Source of the DNA: Streptomyces longwoodensis | GTDB taxonomy: Bacteria; Actinomycetota; Actinomycetes; Streptomycetales; Streptomycetaceae | Direction: 5' to 3' | DNA: 64,000 nucleotides | Assembly (NCBI RefSeq): GCF_001514125.1 | Contig: NZ_KQ948555.1 | Location: 62,001 to 126,000, forward strand | Shown: piece after piece, positions 3,054 through 13,266 of the stretch | Layout of the letters: each line of letters starts with the position of its first letter | Position numbering within the stretch: position 1 is the stretch's first letter | The notes under the pieces: model-generated | What the model was told of the DNA's origin: nothing | Databases searched by the model: none | What the model saw: only the letters and a program-made list of their open reading frames with translations | Translations under genes and position numbers: made by a program

Positions 3054-4442
3054 TCACACCTCCGCGTAGCTGAGCTGCGGCTTCTCCTCAGCTGCGGTCG
3101 CCGTCGCACGCGTAGCGGCGGACGGCTTTCGAAGGTATACGGCCCAGGTGACGGCGAAGCAGGCGGCGTAGAAGGCGAGGAAGGCGACGAACGCGCCGGT
3201 GCCGGAGCCGTAGGAGAGGAAGGACTGGCGGAAAGCGAGGTTGATGCCGACGCCGCCGAGCGCGCCGACCGCGCCGATCAGGCCCATGGACGCGCCGGAC
3301 AGCCGCCGCCCGTACGCCGCGGCCGCCTCGCCCGTCAGGCCCAGGGCGAGGGCCTTGGTGTGGAAGATGCCGGGGATCATCTTGAACGTCGACCCGTTGC
3401 CGAGCCCGCTGAGCACGAACAGCACCACGAAGACCGGCACGAACAGCCCCAGCGACTTCTGCTGGCTGGCGTACACCAGGACGGCCGTCGCGGCGCCCAT
3501 GCCGACGTAGGTGTACAGGCTGATGCGGGCCCCGCCCCAGCGGTCGGCGAGCCGGCCGCCGACGGGGCGGATCAGGGAGCCGAGCAGCGGGCCGATGAAG
3601 GTGAGGTACGCGGCCTGCAGCGGCGTGCGGCCGAACTGGTTGGTGAGCACCTGCCCGAAGGCGAAGCTGTAGCCGATGAACGACCCGAACGTCCCCACGT
3701 AGAGGAACGACATGATCCAGGTGTGTCCGTCGCGGGCCGCGTCCTTGGCGGCGCCGGTGTCGTTCCTGACCTTCTCCAGGTTGTCCATGAAGCGGAAGGC
3801 GAGCAGCGCGGCGAGCAGGATCAGCGGGATGTAGATGCCGAGCAGCACGCGCGGGCCGCCGTTCGCGCCGATGATGGCGAGGGCGATGAGCTGGATGACG
3901 GGGACGCCGATGTTGCCGCCGCCGGCGTTCAGGCCGAGCGCCCAGCCCTTCTTGCGCAGCGGGAAGTAGGCGTTGATGTTGGTCATGGAGGAGGCGAAGT
4001 TGCCGCCGCCGACCCCGGCCAGCAGGCCGACCAGCAGGAACGTCGAGAAGGACGTCCCGGGTTCCATCACCGCGAAGGCCGCGACGGTGGGCACGAGCAG
4101 CAGACCGGCGGAGATGACCGTCCAGTTCCGCCCGCCGAAGACCGCGACGGCGAAGGTGTACGGCACCCGTACGACGGCCCCGACGAGGGTGACCATCGAC
4201 GTGAGCAGGAACTTGTCGGCGGGGGTCAGCCCGTACTCCGGCCCCATGAAGAGCACCAGCACCGACCACAGGGTCCAGACGGAGAACCCGATGTGCTCGG
4301 ACAGGACGGAGAAGAAGAGGTTGCGGCGGGCGATCCGCTCACCGGTCGTGTTCCAGAAGACCTCGTCCTCCGGATCCCAGTGCTCGATCCAACGCCCGCC
4401 CCTGCGCGGGGCCGTGCCGGGGGCTGTGCTCGGGGCTGTCAT
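3054..4442 (-). CDS. narK: nitrate/nitrite transporter, MFS (NarK family)
   Basis: 462 residues, usual for NarK proteins, with about 12 membrane segments. The N-terminal region WIEHWDPEDEVFWNTTGERI is typical of actinobacterial NarK proteins, and the glycine-rich signature segments GLLAGVGGGNFASSMTNINA and GWALGLNAGGGNIGVPV match the nitrate-porter signature. Role: proton-coupled nitrate import and/or nitrite exchange at the cell membrane. The ATG is preceded by GGAGG. nnaR follows on the same strand, implying joint control of nitrogen-oxide use. A possible GlnR half-site lies about 100 nt upstream (4541-4556). Direction of transport cannot be deduced. Confidence 0.93.
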   Translation of the reverse strand: MTAPSTAPGTAPRRGGRWIEHWDPEDEVFWNTTGERIARRNLFFSVLSEHIGFSVWTLWSVLVLFMGPEYGLTPADKFLLTSMVTLVGAVVRVPYTFAVAVFGGRNWTVISAGLLLVPTVAAFAVMEPGTSFSTFLLVGLLAGVGGGNFASSMTNINAYFPLRKKGWALGLNAGGGNIGVPVIQLIALAIIGANGGPRVLLGIYIPLILLAALLAFRFMDNLEKVRNDTGAAKDAARDGHTWIMSFLYVGTFGSFIGYSFAFGQVLTNQFGRTPLQAAYLTFIGPLLGSLIRPVGGRLADRWGGARISLYTYVGMGAATAVLVYASQQKSLGLFVPVFVVLFVLSGLGNGSTFKMIPGIFHTKALALGLTGEAAAAYGRRLSGASMGLIGAVGALGGVGINLAFRQSFLSYGSGTGAFVAFLAFYAACFAVTWAVYLRKPSAATRATATAAEEKPQLSYAEV

Positions 4443-9060: not shown

Positions 9061-11451
9061 GTGGCCGCTCAGGCTCAGCAGGACAACGCGGTCGACTCGG
9101 TCCGGGGCGAGCACGACTCCGTGCGCGACCGAGAGATCCGCGGGGAACAGGAACACCTGGACCGGGTGTACCGGCGGCTCGAGGAGAAGATCCACGAGGC
9201 CGAGTTCCTCATGAACGACGCGGCGCAGCGCGGCCAGGTCGGCACGCCCGGCGCGCTCGCCGAGCGGGACGCCCAGGTCTTCCGCGCCGGCATCCACCTC
9301 AACCGGCTCAACAACGAGTTCGAGGACTTCCTCTTCGGCCGGATCGACCTGCTGCCGGGCAAGGACGGCAAGAAGGGTCCGGACGGCGCCTACACCGCCG
9401 TCGAGCCGGCCGAGGGCGCGGTACGGCCCGACGGCACCGCCGACATCGCCGAGACCCTGCACATCGGCCGGATCGGCGTCCTCGACCAGGACTACGCCCC
9501 GCTGGTCATCGACTGGCGGGCCCCGGCCGCCGCGCCGTTCTACCGGTCCACGCCCGTGGACCCCGGCCGGGTCGTGCGCCGCCGGGTCATCCGCTCCAAG
9601 GGCCGCCGCGTCCTCGGCGTCGAGGACGACCTCATGCGGCCCGAGCTGACCGCCTCCCTCGACGGCCGGGAGCTGCCCGTCATCGGCGACGGCGCCCTGA
9701 TGGCCGCCCTCGGGCAGGCCCGCGGCCACACCATGCGCGACATCGTGGCCTCCATCCAGGCCGAGCAGGACCTGGTCATCCGGGCCCCCGCCGCGTCCGT
9801 GACGTACGTCGAGGGCGGCCCCGGCACCGGCAAGACGGCCGTCGCGCTGCACCGCGCCGCCTACCTGCTCTACCAGGACCGGCGCCGGTACTCGGGCGGC
9901 ATCCTGATCGTGTCGCCGACGCCCCTGCTGGTCGCCTACACCGAGGGCGTCCTGCCCTCCCTCGGCGAGGAGGGCCAGGTCGCGATCCGCGCGATCGGCT
10001 CGCTGGCCGTGGACGCCGTGGGCGCCGAGGCCACGCTGTACGACTCGCCCGCAGTGGCCCGCGCCAAGGGCTCGTCGCGGATGCTGAAGGTGCTGCGCAA
10101 GGCGGCGCGGGGAGCGCTGGAGCTGGGCCGCGGCGCCGGCGCGCCCGCCGGTCAGCTCACCTTCGACGGGGGCGACGCGGCCGGCACGCCGGGCGCCCCC
10201 GCCGGTCCGCCCACCCGGCTGCGGGTCGTCGCCTTCGGGCGGCGCCTCGAACTGGACGCCGCCGCGCTGGACCGCGTCCGCCGCACGGCCCTCGGCGGCA
10301 CCGCCCCGGTCAACCTGCTGCGCCCGCGCGCCCGCAAGCTGCTGCTCGACGCGCTGTGGGAGCAGTCGGGGGCCGCCGGCCGGCAGACCGACCCGGAGCT
10401 GGCCGCCGAGCTGCGCTCCTCCTTCGACGACGACATCACCTCCGAGGACTCCTTCACCGGGTTCCTGGACGCCTGGTGGCCGGAACTGACCCCCCGGGGC
10501 GTGCTGGCCGCCATGGCCGACGAGCGCCGCCTGGGCCGCTGGGCGCGCCGGGTCCTCAACCCCGGCGAGGTCCGCAAGGTCGCCCGGTCGCTGAGGCGGG
10601 ACGGGTACTCCGTGCACGACATCGCCCTGCTCGACGAGCTCCAGGCGGTGCTCGGCGTCCCGGCGCGCCCGCGCAGGAAGCGCGAACTGGACCCGCTGGA
10701 CCAGCTCACCGGCCTGGAGGAGCTGATGCCGGTGCGCGAGGAGTCGCAGCGCGAGCGGGCCGAGCGGCTGGCCCAGGAGCGCACCGAGTACGCCCACGTG
10801 ATCGTGGACGAGGCGCAGGACCTCACGCCGATGCAGTGGCGCATGGTCGGCCGCCGCGGCCGGCACGCCACCTGGACGGTCGTCGGCGACCCGGCGCAAT
10901 CCTCCTGGTCCGATCCGGACGAGGCGGCCGCGGCCCGCGACGAGGCCCTGGGCACCCGGCCCCGGCGCCGCTTCCGGCTGACGGTGAACTACCGCAACCC
11001 GGCCGAGATCGCCGAGCTGGCCGCGAAGGTGCTGGCGCTGGCCATGCCGGGCGCCGAGTCGCCGTCGGCGGTCCGTTCGACGGGCGTGGTGCCGCGCTTC
11101 GCGGTCGTGCGGGAGGCGCTGGGCGCGACCGTGCGGGCCGAGGCCGAGCGGCTGCTGGAGCGGGTCGAGGGCACGGTCGGCGTGGTCGTCGCCATGAACC
11201 GGCGCGAGGAGGCCCGGCGCTGGCTGGCCGGGCTCGGCGACCGGGTGGTGGCGCTCGGCAGCCTGGAGGCCAAGGGCCTGGAGTACGACGCGACGGTGGT
11301 CGTCTCGCCCGCGGAGATCGCGGACGAGTCCCCGGCGGGCCTGCGGGTGCTGTACGTCGCGCTGACCCGGGCCACCCAGCAGCTCACGGTCGTCTCGGGG
11401 GACCGGGACGAACCGGACGTACAGGGTGTTCCGGACCTGCTGAGGGACTGA
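9061..11451 (+). CDS. HelD-type UvrD/SF1 helicase-like ATPase
   Basis: 796 residues from a GTG after AGAAGGGGG. An N-terminal coiled-coil arm (about 1-90, EQEHLDRVYRRLEEKIHEAE) precedes a split SF1 ATPase: Walker A GGPGTGKTAV at about 252-261, DEAQDLTPMQW at about 582-592, motif QSS near 616 and a C-terminal YVALTRATQQLTVV. This layout is that of HelD, which binds RNA polymerase, enters the primary and secondary channels and frees stalled enzyme using ATP. A related actinobacterial group (HelR) protects against rifamycins; I see no rifamycin-associated inverted repeat upstream, so plain HelD is preferred. It is 64 nt downstream of rsuA. Confidence 0.87.
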   Translation: MAAQAQQDNAVDSVRGEHDSVRDREIRGEQEHLDRVYRRLEEKIHEAEFLMNDAAQRGQVGTPGALAERDAQVFRAGIHLNRLNNEFEDFLFGRIDLLPGKDGKKGPDGAYTAVEPAEGAVRPDGTADIAETLHIGRIGVLDQDYAPLVIDWRAPAAAPFYRSTPVDPGRVVRRRVIRSKGRRVLGVEDDLMRPELTASLDGRELPVIGDGALMAALGQARGHTMRDIVASIQAEQDLVIRAPAASVTYVEGGPGTGKTAVALHRAAYLLYQDRRRYSGGILIVSPTPLLVAYTEGVLPSLGEEGQVAIRAIGSLAVDAVGAEATLYDSPAVARAKGSSRMLKVLRKAARGALELGRGAGAPAGQLTFDGGDAAGTPGAPAGPPTRLRVVAFGRRLELDAAALDRVRRTALGGTAPVNLLRPRARKLLLDALWEQSGAAGRQTDPELAAELRSSFDDDITSEDSFTGFLDAWWPELTPRGVLAAMADERRLGRWARRVLNPGEVRKVARSLRRDGYSVHDIALLDELQAVLGVPARPRRKRELDPLDQLTGLEELMPVREESQRERAERLAQERTEYAHVIVDEAQDLTPMQWRMVGRRGRHATWTVVGDPAQSSWSDPDEAAAARDEALGTRPRRRFRLTVNYRNPAEIAELAAKVLALAMPGAESPSAVRSTGVVPRFAVVREALGATVRAEAERLLERVEGTVGVVVAMNRREEARRWLAGLGDRVVALGSLEAKGLEYDATVVVSPAEIADESPAGLRVLYVALTRATQQLTVVSGDRDEPDVQGVPDLLRD

Positions 11452-11531
11452 CGCCAGTGGTCCGTCCCGACTGTTTCCGGTGAACCTCGCCGACGGGAAT
11501 GGGTGTGCGGCATCCGTTTGTTAGCCTGGGT

Positions 11532-11670
11532 GTGGCACCGGCCCGATCCAAGCCCCCGGGCCCAACCTTCGTCGCTACGAGCGACCACTTGCCGCGAGGC
11601 GAGCATGGCGGGTCGGTGCCACTTGACCGTCGAGAGACCCACGTCCTTGGTGACGTGGGTCTCTTTCTTT
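11532..11670 (+). ncRNA. candidate structured RNA ending in an intrinsic terminator
   Basis: A 14-bp closing stem pairs 11532-11545 (GTGGCACCGGCCCG) with 11609-11622 (CGGGTCGGTGCCAC, one G-U). Inside are hairpins GTCGCT-ACG-AGCGAC (11571-11585) and CTTGCC-GCGA-GGCGAG (11588-11603). A TAGCCT -10 box at 11522-11527 would start transcription at the first base of the closing stem, and a strong terminator follows at 11633-11670. It sits alone in the 399-bp gap between the helicase and malic enzyme genes. It could be a trans-acting small RNA or a leader/attenuator of the malic enzyme gene 180 nt downstream. It does not match a riboswitch class I know. Confidence 0.6.
11633..11670 (+). terminator. 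intrinsic terminator
   Basis: AGAGACCCACGTC (11633-11645) pairs perfectly with GACGTGGGTCTCT (11652-11664) over a 6-nt loop and runs into TTTCTTTT, a textbook rho-independent terminator and rare in such clean form in this GC-rich DNA. It ends the candidate RNA and any readthrough from the helicase gene. Confidence 0.92.
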
Positions 11671-11850
11671 TGGCCGAGCGCGCCCCGTACCCTCTCGCAT
11701 GGTGGAATACTTTTTCCGATCCGACCGGTCGTGCGCCGCGCCCCGTGAACAAAACGTCCGCAACCCGGGGCGGCTACCCCGTACTCAGGGGTAGGTGCGA
11801 CGATCGGACGGCACAACTTCGCGACACGGTGAAAGCAGAGGAAGTCGGCC

Positions 11851-13266
11851 ATGGCAACGGCGCCCAGCGTCTCCTACTCGATGACGATCCGGCTGGAGGT
11901 CCCCGCGAGCGGGACCGCCGTCTCGCAGCTCACCAACGCCGTGGAGTCCTCCGGAGGCTCGGTGACCGGCCTCGACGTGACCGCGTCCGGCCACGAGAAG
12001 CTCCGCATCGACGTCACCATCGCGGCCACCTCGACCGGCCACGCCGACGAGATCGTCGAGAAGCTGCGCGGCATCGAGGGCGTCACCCTCGGCAAGGTCT
12101 CGGACCGTACGTTCCTGATGCACCTCGGCGGCAAGATCGAGATGCAGTCCAAGCACCCCATCCGCAACCGTGACGACCTCTCCATGGTCTACACGCCCGG
12201 TGTGGCCCGCGTCTGCATGGCGATCGCCGAGAACCCCGAGGACGCCCGCCGGCTGACCATCAAGCGCAACTCCGTTGCGGTCGTGACGGACGGCTCCGCC
12301 GTGCTGGGCCTGGGCAACATCGGCCCCAAGGCCGCGCTGCCCGTGATGGAGGGCAAGGCCGCCCTGTTCAAGCGGTTCGCCGGCATCGACGCCTGGCCGC
12401 TGTGCCTGGACACCCAGGACACCGACGCGATCGTGGAGATCGTCAAGGCGATCGCCCCCGGCTTCGCCGGCATCAACCTCGAGGACATCTCCGCGCCCCG
12501 CTGCTTCGAGATCGAGGCCCGGCTGCGCGAGGCCCTCGACATCCCCGTCTTCCACGACGACCAGCACGGCACCGCGATCGTCGTCCTCGCCGCCCTGACC
12601 AACGCGCTGCGCGTGGTCGGCAAGGGCATCGGGGACGTGCGGGTCGTCATGTCCGGCGCGGGCGCGGCCGGCACGGCCATCCTCAAGCTGCTGCTCGCCG
12701 CGGGCGTGAAGAACGCCGTCGTCGCCGACATCCACGGCGTCGTGCACACCGGCCGCGCGGACCTGGTGGACGCCCCGGCCGACTCGGCGCTGCGCTGGAT
12801 CGCCGACAACACCAACCCGGAGAACCTCACCGGCACCCTCAAGGAGGCCGTGCGCGGCGCCGACGTCTTCATCGGCGTCTCCGCCCCGAACGTCCTGGAC
12901 GGCGACGACGTGGCCGCCATGGCCGACGGCGCGATCGTCTTCGCGCTCGCGAACCCCGACCCCGAGGTGGACCCGGCGGTCGCCCGGCAGACGGCGGCCG
13001 TGGTGGCCACCGGCCGCTCGGACTTCCCGAACCAGATCAACAACGTGCTGGTCTTCCCGGGCGTCTTCCGCGGCCTGCTGGACGCGCAGTCCCGCACCGT
13101 CAACACCGAGATGATGCTCGCGGCCGCGAAGGCCCTGGCGGACGTGGTCACCGAGGACGAGCTGAACCCGAACTACATCGTCCCCAGCGTCTTCAACGAC
13201 AAGGTCGCGGGCGCGGTCGCCGGCGCGGTGCGCGAGGCGGCGAAGGCGGCGGGCGCGACGGCGTAG
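11851..13266 (+). CDS. NAD-dependent malic enzyme with N-terminal ACT-like domain
   Basis: 471 residues. An ACT-like regulatory domain (about 8-85) precedes the malic enzyme N-domain (KHPIRNRDDLSMVYTPGVAR; VTDGSAVLGLGNIGP; LEDISAPRCFEIE; FHDDQHGTAIV) and NAD-binding domain (SGAGAAGTAI at about 267-276). It oxidatively decarboxylates malate to pyruvate in the cytoplasm, supplying pyruvate and reducing power. The small size and ACT domain match the Streptomyces NAD-dependent enzyme; cofactor preference is known from the family, not seen directly. GAGGAAG precedes the ATG. The preceding structured RNA may influence its expression. Confidence 0.92.
   Translation: MATAPSVSYSMTIRLEVPASGTAVSQLTNAVESSGGSVTGLDVTASGHEKLRIDVTIAATSTGHADEIVEKLRGIEGVTLGKVSDRTFLMHLGGKIEMQSKHPIRNRDDLSMVYTPGVARVCMAIAENPEDARRLTIKRNSVAVVTDGSAVLGLGNIGPKAALPVMEGKAALFKRFAGIDAWPLCLDTQDTDAIVEIVKAIAPGFAGINLEDISAPRCFEIEARLREALDIPVFHDDQHGTAIVVLAALTNALRVVGKGIGDVRVVMSGAGAAGTAILKLLLAAGVKNAVVADIHGVVHTGRADLVDAPADSALRWIADNTNPENLTGTLKEAVRGADVFIGVSAPNVLDGDDVAAMADGAIVFALANPDPEVDPAVARQTAAVVATGRSDFPNQINNVLVFPGVFRGLLDAQSRTVNTEMMLAAAKALADVVTEDELNPNYIVPSVFNDKVAGAVAGAVREAAKAAGATA

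Follow-up and report, generated by a model that had tools for sequence, protein, structure and literature searches.

The element described here lies at positions 11532-11670 of the plus strand of the window, the whole stretch of 64,000 nucleotides of Streptomyces longwoodensis DNA that was analysed, between the genes for a HelD-type superfamily 1 helicase (9061..11451, plus strand) and a malic enzyme (11851..13266, plus strand), both assigned through Pfam. The helicase gene ends about 80 nt from the element. The flanking genes were predicted with a simple GC-frame gene finder, and their limits are hence approximate. By gene order, the helicase gene is presumed to be the counterpart of SCO2952, and SCO2951 is taken to be the malic enzyme gene in S. 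coelicolor.

Fold and terminator of the element

A preliminary description of this DNA had proposed a 14-bp closing stem, two internal hairpins, one of them with a GCGA tetraloop, and a clean intrinsic terminator, and all of these are present in the predicted fold of 11532-11670. The fold has a minimum free energy of -78.4 kcal/mol (z -6.9), which none of 200 shuffled sequences equalled, and the 91-nt body alone (11532-11622), with the terminator removed, gives a z of -4.3. The 5' strand of the closing stem, P1 (11532..11545, plus strand), starts at the predicted 5' end of the RNA and pairs with 11609-11622. An inner extension can be added to the stem as first described: beyond a 2-nt bulge, CCA (11548..11550, plus strand) pairs with UGG (11606-11608), with two-sided changes at all three pairs, which brings the stem from 14 to 17 bp and its 3' strand, extension included, to 11606..11622 on the plus strand.

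Enclosed by the stem on the plus strand are a C-rich strand, GCCCCCGGGCCCAAC (11552..11566), the P2 hairpin (11571..11585; GUCGCU-ACG-AGCGAC, 6 bp), which has compensatory changes at its second and fourth pairs, and the P3 hairpin (11588..11603; 6 bp), whose GCGA loop at 11594-11597 is of the GNRA type. The C-rich strand is unpaired in the comparative model and is proposed as a target-pairing or ligand site. The fold also draws a weak 3-bp GCC/GGC hairpin inside it, for which the comparative model has no need, and in single-sequence ensembles the strand is about half unpaired (mean 0.47). No pseudoknot partner for the C-rich strand emerged from APC-corrected mutual information, which returned nested pairs and noise.

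The intrinsic terminator (11632..11671, plus strand), found by scan and fold alike, consists of a 14-bp hairpin followed by TTTCTTTT, and it is the sole terminator that the scan detected in 11000-12200, where 0.2 would be expected. The sequence of its hairpin differs from species to species. The terminator is claimed for this window and for the hairpins visible in Streptomyces, the crude scan of other families being uninformative.

Conservation and covariation across Actinomycetes

By blastn, the element was detected in all 37 Streptomyces of a sample of relatives together with one distant family, and in 83 of 297 genomes across the class. An exact pattern for the P2-P3 core matched 204 of 395 genomes of the class, with at least one match in 64 of 137 genera; these counts demand an exact match and are lower bounds on presence, and a few of the matches may be due to chance. 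The same pattern read backwards, which served as a control, gave occasional matches only. Some families of the class had no match to the core pattern, and about 10 of the 25 genomes of what is apparently Mycobacterium had one. With the P2-P3 linker one base longer, the pattern misses Streptomyces and exposes the family f21, whose own linker has this additional base. Among the matches listed are Nocardia, Mycobacterium, Gordonia, Rhodococcus, Nocardioides, Aeromicrobium, Kribbella, Cellulomonas, Isoptericola, Phycicoccus, Ornithinimicrobium, Micropruina, and Propioniciclava, the family identity being firm for named loci and a guess for others. The tally of a covariance-model scan of 396 genomes of the phylum was left unused, as few candidates were scored per genome and the scan was insensitive.

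In an alignment of about 56 Streptomyces loci, identity is 0.87-1.00 over the -35 element, GTTAG, and the whole RNA body, and reaches 1.00 in the C-rich strand and P3 (0.99-1.00 for P3 and linker 2 together). Identity falls to 0.54 in the spacer of the promoter and to 0.23 between body and terminator; the terminator itself stands at 0.65, and the sequence beyond it at 0.28. The conservation of the promoter boxes and the RNA body far exceeds the regional background. The CCC/GG core of the C-rich strand is invariant in 40 sequences from many families, and the P3 loop reads GNGA throughout alignment A1.

A covariance model built from 40 sequences found the closing stem P1 in 80 of 80 named loci, among the matches listed, that had been picked by the P2-P3 core alone. 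In alignment A2, comprising 58 distinct sequences, two-sided changes occur in 20 of the 27 pairs; the covariation score of 0.389 compares with 0.149 for shuffled alignments, none of the 500 shuffles scored as high, and slid structures attained at most 0.115. Alignment A3, comprising 78 further distinct sequences, scores 0.399 against 0.121 and contains two-sided changes in all 17 pairs of P1 and its inner extension, the reverse of the lack of compensatory changes in homologues which the preliminary description had named as counting against its proposal. Because the A3 loci were picked by the P2-P3 pattern, the invariance of P2 and P3 there is partly by construction, and P1 alone is taken as independent evidence from that alignment. 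Sharing structure, covariation, and core, the loci form one homologous RNA family that extends over many families of Actinomycetes. G-U pairs are frequent (22 of 56 at one P1 position, for example) and would be A.C on the opposite strand; the plus strand is therefore the functional RNA.

The RNA is usually present in one copy per genome. In Nocardia abscessus, two copies lie head to tail a few bases apart (L233:3899-3983 and 3987-4071, minus strand). The sole plasmid records matched are from Rhodococcus (L031:3001-3060 and L032:3001-3043); one of these copies is partial, and one adjoins an IS30 transposase. Weak second or divergent matches of the model at G173:C2:187206-187318 and L131:1501-1616 (42 and 39 bits) are possible diverged paralogues. 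The tandem pair and the plasmid copies with their transposase neighbour are what a DNA-level element, namely an attachment site or mobile repeat that is palindromic by accident, would have in its favour, but such an element accounts poorly for G-U pairs, strand-specific covariation, a promoter, a terminator, and a copy number that is usually one, and it is given next to no credence. A mobile or phage origin was also sought in phage records and viral contigs, which yielded no match.

The genes around the RNA differ from one family to another. HelD upstream with malic enzyme downstream is an arrangement of Streptomyces loci only. A WhiB gene lies upstream in mycobacteria, in several of which the RNA and an acyl-CoA carboxylase gene downstream converge, and PhoU_div, PemK-like, and aminotransferase IV proteins are found nearby in other families. 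The gene downstream lies on the same strand at 90 of 179 loci and on the opposite strand at 89. These observations bear on the suggestion, made in the preliminary description, of a riboswitch or attenuator for the malic enzyme. A position upstream of that gene, on the same strand and with a terminator at the end, is as expected of a cis-acting regulator. Linkage to one same-strand downstream gene was, however, not found across genomes, the malic enzyme being no conserved partner of the RNA, and the terminator stands apart from the conserved body and varies freely. The suggestion was rejected because the flanks differ between families and the downstream strand is about equally often the same or the opposite, and cis-acting control of the malic enzyme gene is regarded as very improbable.

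Two further neighbours recur. In several families (L124 and about 40 other loci), the gene upstream encodes a protein of about 212 aa that has no Pfam match, and this may be the ancestral context of the RNA. In Nocardioides (L202, L204, L205, L209, and others), the start of a PemK/MazF-like protein follows the RNA by about 30-90 nt on the same strand.

The promoter upstream of the closing stem

The TANNNT -10 box noted in the preliminary description corresponds to TAGCCT, a sigma-A/HrdB-like box at 11522..11527 (plus strand), about 5-10 nt upstream of the stem. A more informative signal, and one that the preliminary description did not contain, is a GGAAY-N18/19-GTT promoter of the ECF (SigR/SigH) type upstream of the stem. 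Its -35 element, GGGAAT, lies at 11495..11500 (plus strand; 0.90 identity over about 56 Streptomyces loci), and its GTT -10 element at 11520..11522 (plus strand; GTTAG, 0.96 identity in Streptomyces) overlaps the TANNNT box. The GGAAT-N19-GTT of the window matches the published SigR consensus, GGAAT-N18-19-GTT (PMC9205884); that of SigH is GGAAYR-N17-18-GTT (PMC4803200). Control by SigE was discounted, since published SigE target promoters mostly carry GTC in place of GTT (PMC6767563), whereas the RNA promoter carries GTT.

Both -10 boxes are constant within Streptomyces, where GTTA[CG] and TA[CG]NNT are each found in 56 of 56 loci. Over all 181 non-redundant loci, GGAAY-N18/19-GTT occurs within 25 nt upstream of P1 in 92, mostly 4-11 nt away, with a spacer of 18 in 80 loci and of 19 in 12, and controls at 17 offsets, each in about 177-180 loci, returned 1 match in total. 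The motif expected of SigR/SigH regulon members thus stands at the predicted transcript start, with controls near zero. It was found in 11 of 12 loci of Mycobacterium s.l., 12 of 17 of Nocardia, and 49 of 56 of Streptomyces. Of the 89 loci that lack the ECF box, 58 carry TANNNT in the last 26 nt, compared with 0.8% of control windows. The ECF box stands alone in most Mycobacterium and Nocardia and in Gordonia; it is combined with an overlapping TANNNT in Streptomyces, the families f20 and f38, and Ornithinimicrobium; and TANNNT stands alone in most Nocardioides, Kribbella, Cellulomonas, and Aeromicrobium. In the family f21, neither box is close to P1, and the RNA possibly extends further on its 5' side; just upstream of P1, this family (L133-L153) has a conserved stretch resembling GACAGCCCTTCGGGGCTCTCGC, which may form an additional 5' hairpin.

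To judge from the promoter sequence, the RNA is probably under SigR/SigH control in Streptomyces and Mycobacteriales. With a promoter of this type, it would be expected to accumulate when cells meet thiol-oxidative, heat, or antibiotic stress. Stress control does not appear to be universal, since some lineages carry the TANNNT box only.

The same promoter bears on whether the element merely derives from the 3' UTR of the HelD mRNA, or is left over from a terminator, with no function of its own. The HelD gene does lie upstream on the same strand at the short distance given above; nevertheless, it does so only in Streptomyces loci, and the RNA has promoter boxes of its own, kept at 0.90-0.96 identity inside a non-conserved intergenic region, so that this origin is considered highly unlikely. 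Promoter boxes, a terminator in the window, and unconserved flanks together mark a stand-alone transcription unit. The element is an independent RNA gene of about 100-140 nt with its own promoter, structured body, and terminator, and the existence of a stand-alone RNA family is close to certain. The new structured stand-alone small RNA of the preliminary description is thereby borne out through covariation, a promoter at the stem, a terminator, and the absence of an Rfam family.

Relation to known small RNAs and proposed function

Conservation beyond one genus is known for few small RNAs of Actinobacteria. Rfam 15 gave no match at the RNA locus, neither at the gathering threshold nor at permissive E-values, two weak chance matches at loose E-values lying far under their thresholds. 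It likewise gave none at the RNA in 17 diverse relatives from many genera, in agreement with the initial remark that no known family was recognised. Neither RF01066 (6C RNA), whose fold also differs, nor the 6S-type families matched at the locus. The literature searched contained no report of the structure, spread, or promoter class of the RNA.

An expressed RNA from this position may nonetheless be on record. The scr RNAs take their names from the adjacent SCO gene, and since the gene order of HelD (SCO2952) and malic enzyme (SCO2951) fits this naming, scr2952 is probably the same RNA, that is, the S. coelicolor member of the family, as judged by gene-order naming. SCO2952 is a HelD gene (PMC8655204). 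The sRNA scr2952 was found to be expressed in S. coelicolor by Vockenhuber et al. (2011) and, according to the available text of PMC8388888, a paper on S. ambofaciens ncRNAs that cites that work, is conserved in more than half of the tested Streptomyces. That text is silent on the structure, promoter class, and function of scr2952 and on any occurrence outside Streptomyces; it places the confirmed scr RNAs in Rfam, yet the RNA locus has no Rfam match.

Among other known RNAs, 6C RNA/B11 (RF01066) resembles the present one in being a small RNA conserved in Actinobacteria and in having unpaired segments rich in C. 6C, however, is made of two hairpins, each with a C-rich loop, whereas the present RNA has a single C-rich strand, located in a closed multibranch junction together with a GNRA hairpin. 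Ms1/6S-like RNA (scr3559) is likewise actinobacterial, stand-alone, structured, and widely distributed, but Ms1, with its roughly 300 nt, consists mainly of a single long, bulged stem; its architecture is different, and no match was obtained. The scr5583 family (Moody et al. 2013, PMC3765725) is also a conserved Streptomyces sRNA with a C-rich loop, though it is named after another chromosomal locus (SCO5583). In concept, as the RNA arm of an ECF sigma stress response, the RNA is comparable to the SigE-dependent small RNAs of Enterobacteria (PMC6767563); these are unrelated in sequence and structure, and the sigma factor here would be SigR/SigH and not the envelope-stress SigE.

The explanation towards which we lean, if only somewhat, is a stress-sigma-driven, stand-alone, trans-acting small RNA whose C-rich strand pairs with mRNAs. 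In Streptomyces, Mycobacterium, and Nocardia, the RNA would be transcribed by ECF sigma factors of the SigR/SigH class, as suggested by its promoter; a housekeeping -10 box overlapping the ECF box would also serve in Streptomyces, and this box, mostly alone, would serve in Nocardioides, Kribbella, Cellulomonas, and others. P1 would keep the trans-acting regulator compactly folded, with the invariant C-rich strand, CCCCGGGYCC, exposed; this strand may then pair with G-rich stretches such as mRNA ribosome-binding sites and so bring about repression during stress. The conserved P2 and the GNRA hairpin P3 might stabilise the RNA or bind a protein. A GC-rich seed of 11-12 nt has too many chance matches in a high-GC genome. 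Pairing with mRNAs is put forward by analogy with B11 (6C RNA), whose C-rich loops pair with G tracts at ribosome-binding sites (PMC10470900).

The conservation of P2 and P3 comes close to that of the C-rich strand, which would fit protein binding equally well. It is conceivable, with appreciable though lesser probability, that P2, P3 with its GNRA loop, and the C-rich strand together offer a sequence-specific surface on which RNA polymerase, the ribosome, or an RNA-binding protein docks, the RNA acting as a sponge or scaffold in the manner of 6S and Ms1 and not by mRNA pairing. In the loci sampled by whole-element similarity, P2 and P3 retain much of their sequence besides their pairing, P3 and linker 2 are almost invariant across Streptomyces, and the RNA is present once in most genomes. 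On the other hand, an RNA of about 100 nt has a build unlike that of 6S or Ms1, and 6S-type Rfam families are not matched. Because the sequence of P2 and P3 is conserved, binding to a protein, RNA polymerase, or the ribosome is held to be nearly as likely as mRNA pairing. A more speculative and rather doubtful proposal is that the class-wide RNA constitutes the SigR/SigH thiol-stress RNA arm and acts via a sequence-specific complex, in which RNA polymerase, the ribosome, or a dedicated RNA-binding protein would recognise the invariant C-rich strand and the GNRA hairpin; this would be a functional class undescribed so far.

In the literature searched, the SigR/SigH thiol-stress regulons are described through their proteins. 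With its SigR/SigH-type promoter in Streptomyces, Mycobacterium, and Nocardia, this highly conserved and usually single-copy RNA offers a directly testable RNA component of the thiol-stress response, and its covariance model could become a new Rfam family. As a separate observation, ASdes, a TB sRNA family in Rfam, matches above threshold at L062:540-607 in the non-Streptomyces genome G078.
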